DNA from: a virus
Strand: one strand, 5' to 3'
Length of the DNA stretch: 23,390 bases
IMG/VR virus record: IMGVR_UViG_3300023170_000178
Span: 1-23,390 of that record
Position 1 is the first letter of the stretch. Each line of letters begins with the position of its first letter. The notes below the pieces were generated by a model that was not told the origin of the DNA, ran no database searches, and saw only the letters and a program-made list of their open reading frames with translations. The position numbers and the translations under genes are program-made. This document shows, in pieces, positions 4,744 through 15,206 of this stretch.

Positions 4744-5274
4744 TCATCCTTCAGCAGTTGGATAAGGGATGTTACCTGTGGTGATACCAGACATCGCAAC
4801 AAGAACTTCTCTCTTGACTCTCAGGTTGCCGTGGTTGTCAACATAAGTTGTGATTCCAACCCAACCAGCATCAATCTTCTCATAACCAGCGGGGCCACCG
4901 ATAGCAGTGTCAGCATCCGAAACACCGTAGATGATTTTATCATCAGTGCCAGAGGAAGACTCACTGTAGGTGACATCCTTAACACTCGAAACAGGAAGTT
5001 CGGAGATGTAGAAATCAGCTCCAGCGATTGCTGCTCCGCTGAGACCTGCGGTAGAACCGATGGTCAGTGATTGAGTACCAGCGATGCTGACAATTACAGC
5101 GTCACCATAATAAGTCGAACCACCACCACGGGTTCCAAATCTAATTACATCACCAGTTTTAGCAGCGCCAACCTGGCCGAAAGTTGTGCCAGTTCCTGTT
5201 ACAGCACCAGTGCTGTAGTTCAGGGAAACGGTACCACCAGAACCAACTGCGTCGTTATTGCCCCAAAGTGCCAT
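4744..5274 (-). CDS. Probable virion surface or decoration protein, beta-rich, Gly/Thr/Ser-rich
   Basis: The protein is 176 aa and starts MALWGNNDAVGSGGTVSLNY, a beginning I associate with a cyanophage virion structural protein family. Composition is rich in Gly, Thr, Ser and Ala with alternating hydrophobic residues (GAVTGTGTTFGQVGAA, DAVIVSIAGTQSLTIGS), which fits a beta-sandwich or fibre-like fold exposed on a capsid. There are no cysteines, no catalytic motif and no signal peptide. It has its own T4-like late promoter (TATAAATA at 5318-5311) about 37 nt upstream and is shielded from upstream transcription by a terminator. That suggests high late expression, as for an abundant structural protein. 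The decoration role is inference; the late expression signal is seen directly. Confidence 0.8.
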   Translation of the reverse strand: MALWGNNDAVGSGGTVSLNYSTGAVTGTGTTFGQVGAAKTGDVIRFGTRGGGSTYYGDAVIVSIAGTQSLTIGSTAGLSGAAIAGADFYISELPVSSVKDVTYSESSSGTDDKIIYGVSDADTAIGGPAGYEKIDAGWVGITTYVDNHGNLRVKREVLVAMSGITTGNIPYPTAEG

Positions 5275-5310: not shown

Positions 5311-5318
5311 TATTTATA
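5311..5318 (-). promoter_or_regulatory. T4-like late promoter for the 176-aa virion protein
   Basis: Read on the minus strand this is TATAAATA, an exact match to the T4 late promoter core recognised by gp55-type late sigma factors. It lies about 37 nt upstream of the ATG at 5274 and directly after a terminator hairpin, so it would restart transcription for the structural gene. Confidence 0.75.
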
Positions 5319-7459: not shown

Positions 7460-8704
7460 TCAGACTCTTTTCTTATATCTATTTATGAACTCTTTAATAT
7501 TTGACTTAGGACCTTTGTAAGGTTTTCCACCTGACTGAAGGTTGGTGTCATCTCCTTTGTTAAACCCAGGAGTCATATCAGCAGCATACTTAAAGTAACC
7601 AGTTGTGCCAGTCAAAGTGTTTGGTTTATCTTTAGTTCTCATCTTGCGGTCCATCTTGACCTCAGTGTACTCATTGAGATCTCTGATCCAAGACTTGAAC
7701 ATCATGTTGTTCTCAGTCACACAGATCAGATAATTGGTTCCACGTCTGATAACCTTACCAACCAAACCAGTGTTCAGGTTCTCAACCAACTGATCAACCT
7801 GGAAGATGTTACCATTCACATAATTTTCACGAAGATTCTTCCAGTCAAACTTAGGAGCAATCTCCCACAAGTTCCAACCTTCCTCAACCTTCATCTTCTT
7901 TCTGAGGATTTGGAAGGTGGATCGGATTGCCTTATCATCCATCTCCTTTGGCATTCCTGAACGGAATGTTTCCATGTCATTATCTGCTGCTGCCTTTCTC
8001 ATCTTAGAGGCAGACATTCCTTCTACACCCTCGGAATCCGCATCTCGATTACCCGCAGAGATCGTCTGAATCTCATCGAAGTTATAAAGATCGCCGTTGT
8101 ATTTCTGAGCCAGCGAGTCAAATTCTGACATCCTGTCCGAACCAACGACAATATTGACATTCTTGTAACCTTCTTCATCAGCAGTTCTCAATGCGTCAAA
8201 GATAGTTTTGATATCTTCATCGTTATGGATGCTGTCCGCGTGCTTGGGATACATCTTTTTCATCAACTCAACCTTGGTCTCAGGATCCAAAGGATTCTTC
8301 TTTGGATCATAAGAACGTGAAGGATAAACATACATGTCACCAGGAAGTGCTGCTGCTTTATCCAGAACTCTCTTGTGACCGATGGTTGGAGGATTGAATC
8401 TTCCAAACACCAGAGTTACTGTTTCGCCTTCTTTCTCTGGTTGTCCGTCTACTGGTTTCTTACTCTTGTCACCCTCTTCTGGTGCTCCCCCTCTCTGCGC
8501 TTTGGGTTCTTCTTCTTTTCCCTGTGCTGCTTGTTTAGGTTGTTCGCCTGCTTTTACAGGTACAAGACGATCCCCCTCAGTCTTGGCAACAAAGTTACCC
8601 TGACTGTCGTACCAGTTGCCAGGTCCTCTTGCTACTAAACCTTTGCGCTTCGCTTGATCAGCGACGCTCGAAGCTTCGGAGAAAAACCTTAGAAAACTTT
8701 TCAT
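7460..8704 (-). CDS. Probable packaged virion protein with nucleotidyltransferase-like (HIGH-type) domain
   Basis: The 414-aa protein has four parts. Residues 1-13 (MKSFLRFFSEASS) resemble a T4 capsid-targeting peptide with an h-S-E|A cleavage-like site. A small module at about 20-50 (GLVARGPGNWYDSQGNFV) follows, also seen in the 757-aa protein of this cluster. After a low-complexity linker (51-94) comes a cytidylyl/adenylyltransferase-like fold: the nucleotide-binding loop FGRFNPPTIGHKR (about 100-112, GHKR replacing HxGH), VVGSDR at 186-191, and MSASKMR (230-236) in the place of the ISSTxxR motif. The C-terminal ~125 residues hold a small beta domain (GLVGKVIRRGTNYLICVT) that I have seen in cyanophage structural proteins. 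The substrate cannot be predicted; NMN, nicotinate nucleotide and phosphopantetheine are all possible for the fold. A double late promoter lies upstream. Confidence 0.82.
   Translation of the reverse strand: MKSFLRFFSEASSVADQAKRKGLVARGPGNWYDSQGNFVAKTEGDRLVPVKAGEQPKQAAQGKEEEPKAQRGGAPEEGDKSKKPVDGQPEKEGETVTLVFGRFNPPTIGHKRVLDKAAALPGDMYVYPSRSYDPKKNPLDPETKVELMKKMYPKHADSIHNDEDIKTIFDALRTADEEGYKNVNIVVGSDRMSEFDSLAQKYNGDLYNFDEIQTISAGNRDADSEGVEGMSASKMRKAAADNDMETFRSGMPKEMDDKAIRSTFQILRKKMKVEEGWNLWEIAPKFDWKNLRENYVNGNIFQVDQLVENLNTGLVGKVIRRGTNYLICVTENNMMFKSWIRDLNEYTEVKMDRKMRTKDKPNTLTGTTGYFKYAADMTPGFNKGDDTNLQSGGKPYKGPKSNIKEFINRYKKRV
7490..7496 (-). promoter_or_regulatory. T4-like late promoter ATAAATA for the 548-aa gene
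   Basis: The minus strand reads CATAAATAGATA, about 35 nt upstream of the ATG at 7455. It lies inside the last codons of the preceding 414-aa gene. Spacing matches the other late promoters of the window. Confidence 0.65.
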
Positions 8705-8735: not shown

Positions 8736-8746
8736 TATTTATTTAT
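8736..8746 (-). promoter_or_regulatory. T4-like late promoter(s) ATAAATAAATA for the 414-aa gene
   Basis: The minus strand reads GGATAAATAAATATC, giving two overlapping ATAAATA cores 32-42 nt upstream of the ATG at 8704. They overlap the last codons of the methyltransferase gene. Similar spacing elsewhere in the block supports function. Confidence 0.65.
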
Positions 8747-9612
8747 CCAAGAAATGAATCAAGTGTTACAGGACGCTCGTCATAATGACCATTGATCAGG
8801 TCATACATGATGCCATGCTCAAGATACTCATCGATGTTGCTGGAACGCAAACCCCAAGCAATGTCGTGAAGTCCAATGGATTGTGCTCCAGAAGCAAAAC
8901 GAGCAATCTTAGTCCAGTCATGCTGGAGGATCAGATCCTTACTTCCTTGCATCCAACGACCAGTGTTGTCATTGTAAGGACGACCATCAGGATAAGCAAG
9001 TCCCTCCAGAATCATTCCAGCAGTTGAACCCTGAGTGCGGAGATAATATTCCGCTTCGTCTTTAGGAACTTGCTTGAAGAACTCACCATAAGGTGTGTTA
9101 CCAAACTTCTTCCGTTTGTAATCACGACGTTCCCACATCTGGAAGCAAGTTCTTACAAACTTCTCCTGTCCATCAGGAAGAATGAAGACTTGATTGGGAA
9201 GAGTGTAATCACCAACAGGATGATAAAACTCATTGATGCGATCAATGCGTTGAACCTTACGGAAGCACTGTGGAAGAATGATCGCAACACGATCAGCAAA
9301 CTTTGTGGCATGATTGAGAATGTCACATGCCAGACCACCCAACCAACCAAATGGTGGATTGGTCAACACCAGGTCAAAATGTTCTGGTGGTTGTTCAAGA
9401 AAGTCACCAACACGATCCAGAGGATGCTCATACTGATTGAGATCCCAAACGGTAACATTATCAAGACCCTTAACCAGGTGTCCCTCACCACAGCAAGGTT
9501 CAAGGATTGATCCTTCCAACCAACCCGCTTCAGCAAGGATGTTATGAACAAACTCAACGTCTTTGGGGTGAGTAAAGTAAGCATCTGAAATGGATTCAGA
9601 AAACTTAGACAT
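8743..9612 (-). CDS. DNA methyltransferase, N6-adenine type (NPPF)
   Basis: This 289-aa protein has the S-adenosylmethionine-binding fold of class I methyltransferases. Motif I appears as LEPCCGEGHLVKGL at about 37-50. An acidic residue follows strand 2 (VTVWDLNQY, D57). Motif IV is DLVLTNPPFGW (80-90), and NPPF is the hallmark of amino-methyltransferases acting on adenine. The N-terminal segment ISDAYFTHPKDVEFV resembles the start of Type I/IIG-like phage methylases. No target recognition domain or cognate restriction gene is obvious, so the target sequence is unknown and it may be an orphan enzyme that protects phage DNA or modifies host DNA. An RNA or protein target cannot be ruled out. 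The ATG shares one base with the sigma factor stop (TGATG). There is no own promoter, so it probably lies on the late mRNA from 14606. Confidence 0.85.
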   Translation of the reverse strand: MSKFSESISDAYFTHPKDVEFVHNILAEAGWLEGSILEPCCGEGHLVKGLDNVTVWDLNQYEHPLDRVGDFLEQPPEHFDLVLTNPPFGWLGGLACDILNHATKFADRVAIILPQCFRKVQRIDRINEFYHPVGDYTLPNQVFILPDGQEKFVRTCFQMWERRDYKRKKFGNTPYGEFFKQVPKDEAEYYLRTQGSTAGMILEGLAYPDGRPYNDNTGRWMQGSKDLILQHDWTKIARFASGAQSIGLHDIAWGLRSSNIDEYLEHGIMYDLINGHYDERPVTLDSFLG

Positions 9613-10304
9613 CAGACAATCTCCACAAAATGATTCTTCAGTTTCGCAATTGCTTTGCGCTCAATCAAGGAGATGGCTGCATATGAAACTCCATATAGTT
9701 TAGCACACTCACGCTGAGTCTTAGCAAGTTCTCCGTCAACACCATAACGATGACACAAAATGTTATACTCTCGCTCTGTCAGAACATCCTTCATCTGATC
9801 CTTGACAGCATCCAGTTCGTCAATTTCATTGTTCGTGATGAGATAAGAAGTCACATCCTCCAGAGTGGAGTTTTCCCCATAGGATGCGTTCAGTGAAAGA
9901 ACGACAGGAATCTTACTCTTCTCTGCCATCAGACCCTGAGCATCGTGGTCTTTGTTGAGTTTGCGAATCTTCTCAGTCACATGAACGGGAACACGAATCT
10001 TACCGTGGTTGTTGGCATTATAACGACTGATGAAGCAATAAACCCAGTAATAAGAATAGGTGGAAAAACGACAACCCTCTTTGGGGTCGAACTTTTCAAT
10101 GGCACGCATGAGACCGAAGACACCCTCTTGGAACAGATCCTCATAGGAATACTGTTCATTTTTATAATACAACTTCTTAGCGAGTTTACCAACGAGACCC
10201 AGATTGCGGGTCACCATGGTGTCGAATGCCTTTTTGTCTCCTGCCTGTGCTGCTTTACACAACTCAAGTTCCTCAACATGTGACAGCAGGGTGCGTTTCT
10301 TCAT
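9612..10304 (-). CDS. Sigma-70 family RNA polymerase factor, bacterial-type
   Basis: This 230-aa protein has two conserved sigma regions. Region 2 spans about 25-107: the core-binding segment YEDLFQEGVFGLMRAIEKFDP is textbook, followed by the -10-contact segment RFSTYSYYWVYCFISRY, where the usual WWIRQAI has diverged to YWVYCFI. Region 4 is at about 170-228: LTEREYNILCHRYGVDGE, then a helix-turn-helix LAKTQRECAKLYGVSYAAISLIERKAIAKL. Region 3 is mostly missing. T4-like late factor gp55 of cyanophages is usually shorter and lacks a full region 4, so this is more like a host group 2/3 factor acquired by the phage. It could direct host RNA polymerase to late promoters or remodel host transcription. 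It overlaps the 757-aa gene by 4 nt (ATGA). Whether it is the only late factor cannot be told from this window. Confidence 0.9.
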   Translation of the reverse strand: MKKRTLLSHVEELELCKAAQAGDKKAFDTMVTRNLGLVGKLAKKLYYKNEQYSYEDLFQEGVFGLMRAIEKFDPKEGCRFSTYSYYWVYCFISRYNANNHGKIRVPVHVTEKIRKLNKDHDAQGLMAEKSKIPVVLSLNASYGENSTLEDVTSYLITNNEIDELDAVKDQMKDVLTEREYNILCHRYGVDGELAKTQRECAKLYGVSYAAISLIERKAIAKLKNHFVEIV

Positions 10305-12574
10305 GTAATGGGGTCTCGCAGCGAACGTTTTAGTCTCTCTATCCTATCACGACCTGATGGTTTTGTCAAGGTAATGGTCTCTTCTTGAATCCATTCTCCC
10401 TCATCGTAATAATTTTCAAAGATGAGTTTCTTGAACTTCGCTGCCTCTTTGGGTTGCATGTTCTGGTCAATCAACTTCTCGTCAATCAAACCATTGGCAG
10501 CGAGAGACTTGTAGAACATCTTCTCCCATGTTCCTTTCTCATTCAGTTTTCCTTTTGTGAAAACTGCATCCTCTTCTGCTTCTGCATCAGGTCCCATTTG
10601 AGACAATGCTGTGGTTCTGTCCCCCGCTTCATGGAAAAGACTGTTGTAATTTTCAATCATTTCCTTTCTCTTCCCCGCGTCCTGACCAATCATGTTCATA
10701 ATTAGAGGACGGAACAACTCCTTCTGAGTTTTGATTTGAGACCTGGTGAGTTTCCTATCCTTCACCATTCCCAATGCCTTTCTCATCTTGTCACCGAGAG
10801 CAACAGGAGTTTTCTTGATTCCATTTCTGTCCATTGCTTCACTCTCTGCCAATTCATTATCAAACAGAGTCTGAATTGCTTCAGGAGAGGCAGAACTTGT
10901 GAACTGTTTGTTCTTAATTACATTGTCTAACAGAGATGCAAGACCTTTGTTCTTTGCTTGGAATGCTTTGTCTGCTGCTTCTAGATCAACATAATCACTC
11001 TTTGTCTTTCCACCATGCTTGTTCTTAACATTATCAAGAAACTTATCCATGTGAAGGTCTGACTTTTCATTGTTCACACCAGTTGCAATCCACAACCAGT
11101 TCTTGGCATTCTCTCTTTCTTTGAGTTGCTCAAGAGTCACACCCTCTTCACCAGGTTCCATTGCATTGATTCCGCGAACGTGCTCAAGTTCCATGTAACG
11201 GGGGTCAAGCAGATTACCAGTATAACCATCACGACCACCCTGGTCAAGATAAAGTTTCAGCAACAGTTTCTTTCTTGCTGTGCTGCTGTTCGTTGTTCTG
11301 TTTTTATCACCCTCTCCACCATAATGAAGTTTAGCAGCAGGAATGTTCTTGATTGAACCATCAGGTTGAAGTGCCTTGAAGGATGTTCCAATGTTACCTG
11401 AACCAAGTGCGCCCTTGAACGAATCGGGAATGACTTTCCAAAGTGCTTCGACTTGCTCCATGGGAGTGTCAACAATCTTTCTGGAGTTGACAAACTTTTC
11501 GATGGTTTCTGGCGACCCATCACCATAACCATTCAGCAACATCTTCTGAACATCAGGATTCAACAGCTGTTGAGCATCCTCATAAAACATTGTTCTCTTA
11601 CCTTCACCATGACGGATTCTTCCGCTGTAAGTGTTGGCGAGTGCCATCACCGAAATGAATTGGTCTCTCATGTCTTCTTCAGACATGTCAGAGTCTGCCA
11701 CTTTACTCTTCATAATTTCCTGAATGGAATCACGAATTGGTTTCATCTTCTCATCGATGATTTCATCTTCCATATCAAAGGACTCTTTCAACTTACTCTT
11801 GAAATCATTAATGAGTTGTTGTCTTTCAGAAACAACATTGTCAGCCACTGTGTCCATAACTTCTTCAGAATCACCAAGGTCTTCGAGAGGTCCTTCGCTT
11901 CTAAGTTCATCCAATAATCCTTCCAGACCTTCAGGAATTTCATCCTCCTCTTCAATGTCTTCATCTTCAACTGCCTGGTCCAAAGTGATTGGTTCAGGTG
12001 CTTCTTTCTTTTCTTCTGGTTCTGGTTGTGCTGCCTCTTCTTCATCAGCAGCGGCAGCATCTTCTTCTGCCTGTGCTGCCATCTGTGCTGCCAGTTCTTT
12101 CTCTTCCTCGCGTCTGGCAATCAGTTGTTGTGCTTCTTCTCTCTTCTTTTGCTTCATGGATGCGTTCATAACATCCCAGCGACCACGAGAGAGCATCATG
12201 GCAACCTGCTCAACATCACCACTGTCCATCACTTCAGCAGAAGGACCACCAGGAACACGGCGACTTCCCTGTGGGTCAGCAAGTTCCGATTCTAGGTCCA
12301 TGGACTGCTGCGCTACTGCGTCAGCGTCCTTTCTCATCTGAGCAAAGTTCTTAGGACCCTTCTCTTCAGGTGCTTTCTTTTCAGCAGTTTCTTTGTCGGC
12401 AACCTTTTCCAGTTTGCCGTTTCTTACTTCATATCTCTGCCCGCTCTTATCGTCAACATAATGTCCAAATCGAATGTTGCGGAGACCAAGTTTCTGTGCT
12501 TGCATTTGAGCAAGACTTGGTTGCTTCTCTTCGGAGATCTGTCTTGCTTTTTTTAGATACTTGAAAACGTCCAT
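10301..12574 (-). CDS. Large acidic virion-type protein with HNH-like nuclease domain
   Basis: This is a 757-aa protein. Residues 1-16 (MDVFKYLKKARQISEE) look like a capsid-targeting helix with an I-S-E cleavage-like site. At about 28-56 is the same GxxYxDxxG...GKLxxV module found in the 414-aa protein. A long Glu/Ala/Asp-rich low-complexity region runs from about 145 to 240, and a helical middle section follows to about 430. A candidate HNH/McrA-like domain spans about 440-510: DQGGRDGYTGNLL, then MELEHV (catalytic-type E464-H465), then NWLWIATGVNNEKSD (N492, N501). The zinc cysteines of many HNH enzymes are absent, as also in Cas9-type HNH domains. The C-terminal ~250 residues are helical and unassigned. 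The call of a packaged nuclease is inference; the motif set is visible. The gene lies 1 nt after the 303-aa gene. Confidence 0.8.
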   Translation of the reverse strand: MDVFKYLKKARQISEEKQPSLAQMQAQKLGLRNIRFGHYVDDKSGQRYEVRNGKLEKVADKETAEKKAPEEKGPKNFAQMRKDADAVAQQSMDLESELADPQGSRRVPGGPSAEVMDSGDVEQVAMMLSRGRWDVMNASMKQKKREEAQQLIARREEEKELAAQMAAQAEEDAAAADEEEAAQPEPEEKKEAPEPITLDQAVEDEDIEEEDEIPEGLEGLLDELRSEGPLEDLGDSEEVMDTVADNVVSERQQLINDFKSKLKESFDMEDEIIDEKMKPIRDSIQEIMKSKVADSDMSEEDMRDQFISVMALANTYSGRIRHGEGKRTMFYEDAQQLLNPDVQKMLLNGYGDGSPETIEKFVNSRKIVDTPMEQVEALWKVIPDSFKGALGSGNIGTSFKALQPDGSIKNIPAAKLHYGGEGDKNRTTNSSTARKKLLLKLYLDQGGRDGYTGNLLDPRYMELEHVRGINAMEPGEEGVTLEQLKERENAKNWLWIATGVNNEKSDLHMDKFLDNVKNKHGGKTKSDYVDLEAADKAFQAKNKGLASLLDNVIKNKQFTSSASPEAIQTLFDNELAESEAMDRNGIKKTPVALGDKMRKALGMVKDRKLTRSQIKTQKELFRPLIMNMIGQDAGKRKEMIENYNSLFHEAGDRTTALSQMGPDAEAEEDAVFTKGKLNEKGTWEKMFYKSLAANGLIDEKLIDQNMQPKEAAKFKKLIFENYYDEGEWIQEETITLTKPSGRDRIERLKRSLRDPIT

Positions 12575-12575
12575 C

Positions 12576-13487
12576 TTAACTCCAGGGGTCTCCTGACATC
12601 TTTAGACTGCTTGAAAACTTCTCAGATTCAAATTTAAATCTCATTTTCAAGATTTTCTTTGTTCCTGCCTTGACACCGACAGAATCATTACCAACTCCCT
12701 CAAAGGAGATGTTATCTCTTCGGATTGCTCGAAGTTTGTCATTGTCAAGTGGGTCTTCCACAGTTGCCGAATAAGGACCCGATGTCCCTCTTCCCGTCAC
12801 TTTAACATAGGGAGGTTGAAGTTGCTCCGAGGCATCAATCCAAGAGTTAAGAATGTATTCCAATCTGGCACTCTGAGATAGAGTATTTAACTTTGTCAGT
12901 AAGACACCACGAATGTTGTTGAGAGCAGTTGCTGCTGCCTCATCTGCTTTTTGTTTAATCAGAGGGTTGGCACGAATCTCTTGCTTTCTTGTCTGTCTGT
13001 TACTCGAAAGACCATATTGTTGAGCAAATGCTTCACCAGCAGCGTCAACAGTGGATTTTAGAGAGATGTTCAAGTCTCTCTCAACAGTTCCCACACCAGG
13101 ATTCTTAAATCCAATATCACCGCTGCTGCTCGTGGACTTGGCGGACAAACCAAGAAACTTTCCACCAGCAAACTCTACCAACACATCAGTTGGATTCTTG
13201 CGCTGGTCAACATCATAACCAGTCACTGCTCGGAAAGAGAAACCAGGACGTGCTGTCCAATGAACTCCCCTTACGCCATTGTACCCATTTCGTCCTGCCC
13301 AAGCAAGAAACTGTTCTGCCATCACAGAAGCACGACCCATTTGTTGTTGGGCTTGCTGGGGGGTCAGCAGTTCCAGTTTCCTGTCAAACTGAGCTTTGGA
13401 TTGTGTGTCAGGGAAAGCACCGTTATTCAGTGCAAAGGCTGTGTAGATTTCATTGACATCAGCCAGGTCCGTGTTGTTGGCTGGCAT
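12576..13487 (-). CDS. Probable virion-associated protein with possible PD-(D/E)xK nuclease core
   Basis: This 303-aa protein starts MPANNTDLADVNEIYTAFAL, a helix similar in position to those of its cluster mates but without a clear protease site. A helical segment (VMAEQFLAWAGRNGYNGV, 55-72) is followed by HWTARPGF. Then comes NPTDVLVEF (D101), a glycine turn, and FLGLSAKSTS (S115-A116-K117). A D...(E/S)xK pair on adjacent strands is the core of PD-(D/E)xK nucleases, including the variant with Ser in place of Glu. GDIGFKNPG follows, and the C-terminal half is of unknown fold. The family is not recognised by name. A nuclease would fit the adjacent HNH-like gene, but a DNA-binding structural role is equally possible. 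It starts 10 nt after the 356-aa gene. Confidence 0.75.
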   Translation of the reverse strand: MPANNTDLADVNEIYTAFALNNGAFPDTQSKAQFDRKLELLTPQQAQQQMGRASVMAEQFLAWAGRNGYNGVRGVHWTARPGFSFRAVTGYDVDQRKNPTDVLVEFAGGKFLGLSAKSTSSSGDIGFKNPGVGTVERDLNISLKSTVDAAGEAFAQQYGLSSNRQTRKQEIRANPLIKQKADEAAATALNNIRGVLLTKLNTLSQSARLEYILNSWIDASEQLQPPYVKVTGRGTSGPYSATVEDPLDNDKLRAIRRDNISFEGVGNDSVGVKAGTKKILKMRFKFESEKFSSSLKMSGDPWS

Positions 13488-13497
13488 CTGTCAAACC

Positions 13498-14568
13498 TCA
13501 CTTCTGCTTTTTCTCGATCTCTTTGCTCATCTTGGCAATTTGAGCGATGCTCAGATTACCAGTTCCAGTGAAACCAGGCTTCGAAGGATCTGGTTGCTTA
13601 GAATGAGTGCGATCTTTCTTACCTGCTTGATCGGGTTCACGCTGGTAACCTTCGTCCCAGGAGTTAACGATGGCATCGATTCTTGCCTGCTCTTCGGCAG
13701 AGAAAGTGACTCCTTCCTTTACACCCTTGTCCTTGGCAATCGCTTTGCCGATGGCCTTGCGACGCTTGGCAAGATACTTATCGGAGGAATCGGTGTCACC
13801 ATCGTTGTCGATGTCAGCGTCTTCCTGACCGACGGGATCCAGTTTTTCGTAGATTCCTTTGTAAGCAGATGCCCACTCGGTTCTGATCTTCGAAGGAACA
13901 CCCAGGATGTTCTCTTCCTTGAACTGTGGGTGATCATCCAGTTTCATGCCACGCTTCTTCTCAAGGCGTGCTTTCTGCTCGGCAGAGTTGTTACCACGGA
14001 TGTTCAGAGTCTTCTGCTTCAGTCTCTCTTTAGCAGCATCTCTTTCCTTCTGAGGGATCTCAAATCCCTTGATGTCCATGGTGCCTTCCAGCATCTTAGC
14101 GAAACCTTCCAGGACATTCTTTCTGTCCAGAGCAACACAGGCTTCATGAATCTTGGAGTTACCGTGCTCGTGAGAAATCTTACCCTGCCACTTCTCGACC
14201 AGAGGCTTGCTGTCACGATACTCAATGAAGCGAAGTTCTGCTTCTTCAGGTGCTCTCTCGGTCACCTTGTTGAAGGTTGTGTCAAATGCTTCGGCAAGTC
14301 TTGTTACCTTGGCAACACGCAAAGGTGATGAATCCTTATCTACGCTCTCTTCCAGGATTGATGCGACTGCTTCAAATGCATCTCCAGCGGAAACTCCCTC
14401 AAGGAAGAGTGCCTCAACGATGTCTTCAGCAACGAGGACCAGATCTTCTTTGGTCAGTTGAGTCAGATCCATTACAGAGATCTCATCTCTTGACTCATTA
14501 AGTTGTTGATTGACATCGGCATTATGCACAGCAGCATAAGCTCTGTACAGATGGCTCATATCGGACAT
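13498..14568 (-). CDS. Probable cyanophage virion/internal structural protein with EF-hand-like loop
   Basis: This 356-aa protein begins MSDMSHLYRAYAAVHNADV, a beginning I associate with cyanophage virion proteins of unknown role. The N-terminal helix is followed by Q22-L23-N24-E25|S26, a good match to the T4 gp21 prohead protease consensus. An acidic helical region (30-75) comes next, then basic/helical segments. A loop at 252-263 (DIDNDGDTDSSD) has aspartates at EF-hand positions 1, 3, 5, 7 and 12 with Gly at 6, so it may bind Ca2+. The lysine-rich, proline-containing C-terminus suits a DNA-facing or head-internal protein. It is the first gene of the late block and has its own TATAAATA promoter 31 nt upstream. 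The head location is inference from composition, promoter and cleavage-like site. Confidence 0.82.
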   Translation of the reverse strand: MSDMSHLYRAYAAVHNADVNQQLNESRDEISVMDLTQLTKEDLVLVAEDIVEALFLEGVSAGDAFEAVASILEESVDKDSSPLRVAKVTRLAEAFDTTFNKVTERAPEEAELRFIEYRDSKPLVEKWQGKISHEHGNSKIHEACVALDRKNVLEGFAKMLEGTMDIKGFEIPQKERDAAKERLKQKTLNIRGNNSAEQKARLEKKRGMKLDDHPQFKEENILGVPSKIRTEWASAYKGIYEKLDPVGQEDADIDNDGDTDSSDKYLAKRRKAIGKAIAKDKGVKEGVTFSAEEQARIDAIVNSWDEGYQREPDQAGKKDRTHSKQPDPSKPGFTGTGNLSIAQIAKMSKEIEKKQK

Positions 14569-14597: not shown

Positions 14598-14795
14598 TTA
14601 TTTATAAGTTTCTAACAACTCTCGTTCATCTTGATATGGCAGTTCCTTTTCAGTGAGCATGTCAAATCCTCTTTGGATCTCAGGATACAACCACACATCC
14701 CAATCTTTAGCACAATACTCCCAGTTCTGTGGAACTGTCACACATGGAATAACAACCATACCAATGAATGAGATGATGTAGTTGAGTGCTGTCAT
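14598..14795 (-). CDS. Small protein with N-terminal hydrophobic segment, unknown
   Basis: This 65-aa protein has residues 2-20 (TALNYIISFIGMVVIPCVT) forming one hydrophobic span, either a membrane anchor or an uncleaved signal. A polar, acidic tail rich in Trp, Tyr and Glu follows (WEYCAKDWDVWLYPEIQRG). No family is recognised. Its ATG overlaps the stop of the preceding gene by one base (TAATG). It is the last gene of the early-type run before the late block, and its stop region overlaps the late promoter at 14606-14599. Small single-span proteins of this kind are common in phage early regions as host-takeover factors, but no function can be read here. Confidence 0.7.
   Translation of the reverse strand: MTALNYIISFIGMVVIPCVTVPQNWEYCAKDWDVWLYPEIQRGFDMLTEKELPYQDERELLETYK
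14599..14606 (-). promoter_or_regulatory. T4-like late promoter TATAAATA at the head of the late block
   Basis: The minus strand reads CTTATAAATAACAATAACG. TATAAATA is an exact T4 late core, 31 nt upstream of the ATG at 14568, straddling the stop of the 65-aa gene. It is the best-placed promoter for the 356-, 303- and 757-aa genes, sigma factor and methyltransferase, which follow with gaps of 10 nt or less. Confidence 0.75.
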
Positions 14796-15007
14796 TAGTC
14801 TTGTTTGTAAAAACCAAGTGATTGAGCATCACGAAGACGCTCTTTGAGAACCAATCCAGTCAAAGATTCCATCACACTGAGGATGTCTTCTGCCTTTGCA
14901 CCTTCACCAAGTTCCTTTGCAACAAAGTGATACTTGGCGAAGAAGGTGTCAGCAACCTCCTTGTAATCTTCAACTGTTACTGGTTTATCCTTCTTGTCCT
15001 TCGGCAT
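14795..15007 (-). CDS. Small acidic-helical protein, unknown function
   Basis: This 70-aa protein starts MPKDKKDKPVTVEDYKEVAD. An in-frame ATG at 15061 would add 18 residues, but I chose 15007 because AAGGAGGAG lies 7 nt before it and because the longer form would overlap the upstream gene by 77 nt instead of 23. The body is predicted helical (DILSVMESLTGLVLKERLRD). There are no recognised motifs, no cysteines and no membrane segment. The gene is part of a tight string of four small genes between mazG and the late block. Confidence 0.72.
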   Translation of the reverse strand: MPKDKKDKPVTVEDYKEVADTFFAKYHFVAKELGEGAKAEDILSVMESLTGLVLKERLRDAQSLGFYKQD

Positions 15008-15206
15008 CAGTCTCCTCCTTAAGTTCTTCCAAGGCTTTCTCAATGCCATCATCCAGTTCACCGATCACCTTACGGATGTCCACGATGCGCTCAGGAGTGC
15101 AGGTGGGATCATAGGTGTAATCCTTCTGTGACTCAAACAGGACTTGTCGAACTGCTGCTGCAGAACGAACGTCCATCGTTGACACCACAACAACTTCTTT
15201 ACTCAT
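14985..15206 (-). CDS. Small acidic protein, unknown function
   Basis: This 73-aa protein begins with a hydrophobic strand (MSKEVVVVSTMDVRSAAAVR), followed by a polar middle (DYTYDPTCTPERIVDIRKV) and a very acidic C-terminal helix (GELDDGIEKALEELKEETD). I do not recognise it. The ATG overlaps the stop of the 76-aa gene by 4 nt (ATGA), and the 3' end overlaps the next gene by 23 nt, where its tail contains the AAGGAGG ribosome site of that gene. Translation of the two is therefore likely linked. Confidence 0.72.
   Translation of the reverse strand: MSKEVVVVSTMDVRSAAAVRQVLFESQKDYTYDPTCTPERIVDIRKVIGELDDGIEKALEELKEETDAEGQEG

Follow-up and report, generated by a model that had tools for sequence, protein, structure and literature searches.

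A putative PD-(D/E)xK nuclease of the Ser-x-Lys type from a T4-like phage and its possible place in a head-loaded enzyme set

What use does a T4-like phage have for a putative nuclease that no family library recognizes? The question is raised by the window, i.e. the whole stretch of 23,390 nt analysed here (a 23-kb virus record), in which an ORF starting with ATG on the minus strand (12576..13487) encodes a protein of 303 aa. A preliminary description had read the pattern D101-x13-S115-A-K117 of this protein as the D-(x)n-(E/S)xK core of a PD-(D/E)xK nuclease with Ser at the Glu position, and had proposed that the gene is paired in a late operon with the HNH-like gene directly following it. 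The codons confirm the three residues, and the ORF coordinates confirm that only 1 nt separates the gene from the HNH-like ORF (10301..12574, minus strand).

The gene and its genomic setting

ORF inspection of the window identifies NrdA, gp61 primase, gp41 helicase, UvsX, gp43 polymerase, and Hsp20, and the T4-like set is encoded entirely on the minus strand. The Synechococcus phages S-B05, S-SM2, Syn19, and RN05-S have, in full or in part, the order gp43-UvsX-gp41-MazG-[variable genes]-cytidylyltransferase-...-gp61-NrdA in their annotation, and the 303-aa gene is located in the variable slot, with MazG on one side and the cytidylyltransferase on the other. The source virus is of the T4 type and probably has a cyanobacterial host. 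The features of the block are as follows:

7460..8704, minus strand: cytidylyltransferase with a capsid-targeting-like N-terminus (family matches; the cytidylyltransferases of S-SM1 and S-CREM2 are virion proteins)
8743..9612, minus strand: DNA-methyltransferase-like protein (phrog_799, E 9e-20)
9612..10304, minus strand: phage sigma-70-type factor (family library matches)
10301..12574, minus strand: HNH-like protein, 757 aa, with an N-terminal module common to virion proteins (HNH-type invariant residues in alignment A7; N-terminal profile match)
12576..13487, minus strand: 303-aa protein of predicted PD-(D/E)xK fold, Ser-x-Lys variant (family core; this copy is without targeting peptide)
13137..13139, minus strand: codon of K117, candidate catalytic Lys on strand 110-118 (sequence, alignments, model)
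13143..13145, minus strand: codon of S115, the residue found where (D/E)xK enzymes usually have Glu (sequence and alignments)
13185..13187, minus strand: codon of D101, candidate metal ligand at the start of strand 102-106 (sequence, alignments, model)
13449..13451, minus strand: codon of E13, helix-1 Glu and motif I candidate (invariant in 61/61; helix H5-20 of the model)
13498..14568, minus strand: 356-aa protein, encoded at the head of the block (an RN05-S protein in a like position is annotated 'virion protein')
14599..14606, minus strand: TATAAATA, late promoter sequence of the T4 type, ~31 nt upstream of the gene for the 356-aa protein

The 356-aa gene is linked to the RN05-S and S-B05 proteins by position and N-terminal resemblance only, the latter two being relatives of each other. 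An 88-aa ORF (14795-15061) gives a sub-threshold match to the Pfam colicin pore-forming domain (17.3 bits, cut-off 23.4), which is probably due to chance, PHROG 2171 being a far better fit.

The proposal of a late operon gains support from the exact copy of TATAAATA, which we take to be the T4 late promoter sequence, ahead of the gene that opens the block. Two matches are found in the window where 0.23 would be expected, both on the minus, i.e. coding, strand, and the second (5311-5318) lies upstream of a 176-aa ORF (4744-5274, minus strand). Among the family genes, 15 of 69 have the sequence within 150 nt upstream as compared to 1.5% expected, a count to which related loci contribute non-independently; CTAAATA is not found above chance. 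This pattern suggests that the 303-aa gene is expressed late in infection.

Conservation and predicted fold

Relatives of the 303-aa protein are encoded in 174 of 215 pattern-matched IMG/VR stretches, 80 of which were kept, and a profile-derived scan found relatives in 210 of 294. The family is thus widespread in viruses, and it is unannotated: Pfam and PHROGs contain no family for the window protein, and searching all 56 members of alignment A2 against Pfam and all 52 members of A1 against PHROGs gave scattered chance-level names only. The HNH-like protein has no match in Pfam or PHROGs either. In the open-access literature on cyanophages together with PDDEXK, capsid targeting, virion, or Cas9 we found no account of the 303-aa family or of cyanophage targeting peptides. 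A scan of prokaryote genomes returned a single relative, and the MAG contig encoding it is probably of viral origin. S-B68 is the one annotated phage with the family, which there forms the C-terminal part of the 583-aa protein QBP06017 (E 5.5e-80 with a profile built in part on QBP06017 itself, E 2e-25 with A2, from which S-B68 was left out). A1 comprises 52 rows and A2 56 rows, some of them from the profile-derived scan, the incomplete L034 and duplicates being excluded.

D101, S115, and K117 are identical in 59/59 sequences (the window protein and 58 unique relatives). A set of 61 sequences that combines A1 with seven paralogues of the A3 group bearing a capsid-targeting sequence (CTS) and two L064-type paralogues, and so includes divergent subfamilies, has only ten invariant columns, i.e. 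E13, T78, D101, G113, S115, K117, N129, G131, K281, and K296. The D, the SxK, and the helix-1 Glu are in register both in the paralogues L064 and L167 (profile E 5.7e-11 and 1.7e-10) and in the A3 group (hhalign A2-A3, E 3.2e-5). Scans with L064-type and S-B68-type queries yielded 2 and 0 loci, respectively, and the A1 profile has no match in metaG-MbCM1 or ACG-2014f. The nearest relative of the window gene differs from it with dN 0.21 and dS 1.55. A motif of D...SxK shape alone is weak evidence; the corresponding regular expression matches 2 of 1390 shuffled ORFs.

Other cyanophage groups carry proteins with D...S-L-K in the same slot, i.e. S-SM2_160 and Syn7803C24_179/Syn19_172 of ACG-2014f. 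Profile comparison does not establish kinship for either, as Syn7803C24_179 (A4) aligns with A2 at E 0.19 in the wrong register and S-SM2_160 (A5) at E 0.019 over 29 columns. The ACG-2014f type has a fold match in BFVD from the same phage (433 aa, E 1.2e-4), the accession being assigned to the gene by its length, and both groups serve here as leads only. D...S-L-K is also seen in three PHROGs of 'unknown function', phrog_3060, phrog_3560, and phrog_33928, whose genes occupy this slot or lie close to it (L177:6651-7967, L185:2405-3703, L203:4986-6119), and these are possibly further SxK nucleases. Four contigs (L009:3168-3242, L013:5900-5974, L017:5906-5980, L028:3015-3089) have a tRNA-Ala(TGC) gene immediately ahead of the family gene, and in S-SM2 a tRNA-Ala overlaps the start of the SxK-type gene in the same slot (L177:6605-6677).

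The AlphaFold2 model of the 303-aa protein, based on 56 sequences, has a pLDDT of 90.6 and a pTM of only 0.64, and its secondary structure elements are H5-20, H28-38, H43-66, E72-77, H85-89, E102-106, E110-118, H132-139, and onward. D101 is positioned just before strand 102-106 and K117 within strand 110-118, with a turn at 107-109, so that the model places the two residues on the adjacent strands of a hairpin behind the E13 helix H5-20. This is the arrangement expected of PD-(D/E)xK enzymes.

A Foldseek search of the model against the PDB gave nothing at E 0.001, the first match being Cas4-like ACE1 (E 0.085). Among viral structure models nine matches reach E 0.001, none of known function, and profile A1 against PDB sequences gave a single chance match. 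In the VIA comparison the best matches are HinP1I (Z 6.0 and 5.7), ACE1 (5.2 and 5.0), MspI (5.0), influenza PA (4.8), RecE (4.7), Hjc (4.6), AddAB (4.6), and Dna2 (4.3); Hjc is tied with RecE, the PA endonuclease, and others. HinP1I aligns over 207 residues at 4.8 Å, Hjc over 92 residues at 3.0 Å. By name 33 of the best 50 VIA rows are PD-(D/E)xK nucleases, and five more (Prp8, SPARDA, a putative exonuclease) presumably also belong there, leaving 12 that do not; counted in this way, the first 19 rows are all PD-(D/E)xK enzymes, the first clear non-member being row 20 (Z 3.8). Restriction-enzyme families besides those named do not figure among the best rows, which says nothing against them. 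A restriction-endonuclease-like α/β core is thus found in 38 of these 50 rows, at Z ≤6.0 and Foldseek E ≥0.085. All VIA Z values are below 8, i.e. moderate and by the tool's guidance possibly reflecting a common arrangement, and the case for the fold consequently rests on the agreement among the matches and on the conserved residues. The available part of a review (PMC4081073) assigns MspI to the beta branch; its references include a paper whose title names a similarity of HinP1I to MspI.

The position ahead of x-Lys is occupied by Ser in 59/59 and 61/61 sequences. Most (D/E)xK enzymes have Glu or Asp here; active restriction enzymes with a non-acidic residue include MspI, HinP1I, and NgoMIV/Cfr10I. 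In view of the Ser we call the 303-aa protein a variant rather than a plain member of the PD-(D/E)xK enzymes. The reading of the preliminary description is supported in part, and neither outcome that would have spoken against its nuclease proposal occurred: the predicted fold matches restriction-endonuclease-like nucleases best, and D101 and K117 do not vary. Taken together, the invariant E13, D101, S115, and K117, the predicted hairpin, and the best matches to HinP1I, MspI, Cas4-like enzymes, RecE, and Hjc indicate that the protein is most likely a nuclease of the PD-(D/E)xK fold, and we consider it highly probable that it has nuclease activity.

Neighbouring genes and capsid-targeting peptides

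A gene for a DUF6267 protein or a cytidylyltransferase is found within positions +1 to +3 of the family gene in 55 of 70 nonredundant loci and upstream of it in 0/70, these counts being non-independent as the same gene families recur. An HNH gene, in contrast, is the +1 gene in only 3 of the 67 loci that have a downstream gene, so that the proposed pair of nucleases exists in the window and is not a conserved unit; among 22 HNH-bearing ORFs, those adjoining the family are that of the window and those of two IMG/VR contigs, which were fetched repeatedly. In the HNH-like protein D449, Y451-T452-G453, E464-H465, N492, N501, and K504 are invariant (12 sequences, A7), and a search with profile A7 returned low-complexity matches only. 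The motif and the invariant residues suggest the HNH identity of the 757-aa neighbour. An S-CBWM1 protein annotated 'virion structural protein' has the HNH core in common (E 7e-17). The protein in the HNH slot of RN05-S (L186:9425-12004) has the same N-terminal 257 residues (E 1e-57) followed by a different HNH-type C-terminus, a sign of domain swapping. In PV261925.1 the labels look shifted, a cytidylyltransferase relative being called 'tail fiber protein' and a relative of S-B05 QCW22942 'cytidyltransferase'.

DUF6267 (PF19782), which goes unnamed in the open-access literature we searched, gave a model with a pLDDT of 89.8, only residues 1-13, i.e. the targeting peptide, being below 50. RNA or DNA (polynucleotide) ligases make up 49 of its 50 best structural rows, headed by an RNA ligase from Naegleria (Z 9.1); Foldseek alone lists an archaeal DNA ligase first (E 0.041). 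K58 and D60 of a KxDG motif are invariant in 28 sequences (A6: L047:1759-2985 and 27 more). DUF6267 thus appears to be a nucleotidyltransferase of the RNA ligase type whose capsid-targeting N-terminus is detachable.

Internal proteins of T4 enter the prohead via N-terminal sequences of 10-19 residues that are removed by gp21, and foreign proteins including EcoRI have been packed by means of such sequences (available parts of PMC9026906 and PMC5694885). A T4-like targeting peptide is found at the start of 61 of 110 ORFs at positions +1/+2 of the family gene as compared to 37 of 370 other ORFs, and at residues 41-80 of the same +1/+2 ORFs the motif occurs in 0/110. The family itself bears the peptide in 3 of 70 members (L052, L063, L077); the window copy and the other 67 members are without it. 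It is also present on the paralogues L064/L167, on the A3 group, and on S-B68 QBP06017. Among 14 A3 loci, three of which offered too little upstream DNA for this comparison, five have an unlabelled family gene ahead of the labelled A3 paralogue at a distance of at most 4 nt; the two copies could act jointly, or only the labelled one could travel. A gp21-type protease (Peptidase_S77) is encoded in 4/4 tested family-carrying contigs >100 kb and in 5/12 overall.

In its strict form the motif marks just two of 62 T4 genes, ipII and ipIII; ipI is not among them. The virion proteome of S-CREM2 comprises 52 proteins (PMC10665884, Table 3), and the strict motif, a form that was narrowed after these data had been seen, occurs in 5/52 virion proteins and in 0/167 others. 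A loose form separates the two groups weakly (8/52 vs 8/167, p 0.027; with a 25-residue limit 7/52 vs 8/167, p 0.053). The five strict-motif proteins are a SAM hydrolase, a kinase, a cytidylyltransferase, and two unknowns, and gp12 (labelled Cas9/Csn1), for which Table 3 of PMC10665884 lists 28 unique peptides from virions, carries the motif behind a longer leading stretch. A second N-terminal motif, L.[DEN][LIV]..[VIL]Y, which seemed to be common to the family N-terminus and neighbouring proteins, was rejected, as 0/219 S-CREM2 proteins have it within their first 40 residues; E13, which lies within it, is better explained as the helix-1 Glu since it is conserved in the CTS-bearing paralogues, too.

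Profiles of N-termini also lead to virion proteins. The profile of the HNH N-termini, window included, finds gp14 (1e-13) and gp12 (3e-6) in S-CREM2, and that of the cytidylyltransferases finds gp14, gp12, and gp154, all of them virion proteins. In otherwise unrelated proteins the targeting peptide is followed by a module of ~40 residues, GL...GxGxYxDxxGxVxxxTxxGxL; its carriers are the window proteins at 10301-12574 and 7460-8704 as well as S-CREM2 gp12 and gp14, the latter two found in virions. Residues 4-146 of S-B68 QBP06017 are 60% identical to S-CREM2 gp12, i.e. the same N-terminal module is joined to an HNH-type domain in S-CREM2 and to the nuclease domain of the window family in S-B68. 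Virions of S-SM1 contain a cytidylyltransferase (available part of PMC3037559) and those of S-SCSM1 an NMNAT-like protein (available part of PMC9602691); authors of the virion proteomes note, in the part of the text available, that abundant proteins could have co-purified. None of the phages whose virion proteomes we consulted carries the exact window family, and in their virions module-sharing relatives only are seen.

Possible functions and known systems

Based on these findings we favour, with moderate confidence, the view that the protein is a late PD-(D/E)xK phosphodiesterase belonging to a head-loaded enzyme set of a T4-like phage. The 303-aa protein would be a metal-dependent enzyme made late in infection, in which E13 of helix 1 and D101 hold the metal ion and K117 positions the attacking water, with S115 at the position usually occupied by Glu. 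Its gene travels with those of an RNA-ligase-like protein, a cytidylyltransferase/NMNAT-like enzyme and, in the window, an HNH protein, and this set of nucleic-acid and nucleotide enzymes may enter the head and be delivered along with the phage DNA, as the T4-type capsid-targeting peptides on many of the partner proteins lead us to infer. Once delivered, the nuclease might cut host nucleic acid, assist in early takeover, or act in counter-defence. Packaging of the family in general is plausible without being probable, and packaging of the window copy itself is rather doubtful. More tentatively, we speculate that aquatic T4-like phages possess a head-borne enzyme kit, delivered with the DNA, that repairs or cuts nucleic acids before phage genes are expressed, with the window gene as its core nuclease. 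Its parts may be the Glu-Asp-Ser-x-Lys clade of PD-(D/E)xK enzymes, DUF6267, NMNAT-like cytidylyltransferases, HAD phosphatases, HNH proteins, and kinases; swappable capsid-targeting peptides and the common N-terminal module of ~40 residues would tie them together.

The most serious rival, which we nevertheless regard as unlikely, keeps the enzyme in the producing cell as a late replication or packaging nuclease, e.g. a Holliday-junction resolvase or a debranching enzyme replacing endonuclease VII. REase-fold candidates have been proposed as resolvases in jumbo phages without known ones (available part of PMC7824862). Hjc gives one of the better structural matches, a targeting peptide is missing from most copies, and endonuclease VII was found in 0/12 family contigs (the positive controls S-CREM2 and S-B05 were matched) and RuvC in 0/5 large ones. 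However, seven of the 12 contigs are shorter than 50 kb, so that absence there says little, the conserved neighbours are ligase-like and cytidylyltransferase genes and not recombination genes, and several SxK relatives bear targeting peptides, for which a resolvase would have no use. Degradation of host DNA for nucleotide supply, as by the host-DNA nucleases of T4 and only made late, would agree with the nuclease fold and active site and with the location of the gene in the replication/nucleotide-metabolism half, between gp41/MazG and gp61/NrdA. Yet T4 breaks down host DNA early, which is when such an enzyme would be expected and not what the late-type promoter sequence indicates, and the link with the head-cargo genes would go unexplained; we thus consider this role improbable.

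Catalysis itself is at stake if the protein is a degenerate, non-catalytic nucleic-acid-binding relative with Ser in place of the catalytic Glu. The Ser in all 61 sequences would be in line with this, nuclease activity being a prediction, but a dead enzyme would not need to keep E13, D101, and K117 in 61/61, and the active restriction enzymes named above do with a non-acidic residue at this position; we give this possibility little weight. That the gene is a free-standing homing endonuclease appears very improbable, even though HNH and PD-(D/E)xK homing endonucleases exist in phages and the adjoining HNH gene comes and goes among relatives, as position and direction relative to DUF6267/cytidylyltransferase are constant in 55/70 loci and the active site is invariant over wide divergence, with dN far below dS.

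On the view that the enzyme belongs to a head-loaded set, a large unannotated family and, via its neighbours, DUF6267 are given a testable function. If these enzymes are indeed carried in the head, abundant aquatic T4-like viruses would inject ready-made nucleic-acid enzymes, the picture of host defence and of the first minutes of a cyanophage infection would change, and the recurrence of cytidylyltransferases, kinases, and 'Cas9' in cyanophage virion proteomes would be explained. The targeting peptide offers a simple sequence test for further cargo.

Several known systems resemble parts of this scheme. With HinP1I and MspI the window protein shares the beta hairpin with Asp and x-Lys and the non-acidic residue at the Glu position, at an identity of only 8-10%. 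With archaeal Hjc it shares the PD-(D/E)xK core (Z up to 4.6) and the helix-1 Glu; Hjc, however, has Glu at the Ser position and is ~120 aa long as compared to 303. S-CREM2 gp12 and S-B68 QBP06017 have the N-terminal module in common, but QBP06017 bears the nuclease domain of the window family, whereas the C-terminus of gp12 is of HNH type and not SxK, and presence in virions is shown for gp12, not for QBP06017. T4 gp4, a virion-associated nuclease of REase fold (available part of PMC7824862), links such an enzyme with the head of a T4-like phage, as is proposed here; it differs in being a head-completion protein needed for packaging and in its gene neighbours. Finally, T4 internal proteins are not nucleases and the window copy has no targeting peptide, but the N-terminal F..F(I/L)xE-like peptide of IPI-III and Alt recurs on the relatives and neighbours of the window family.
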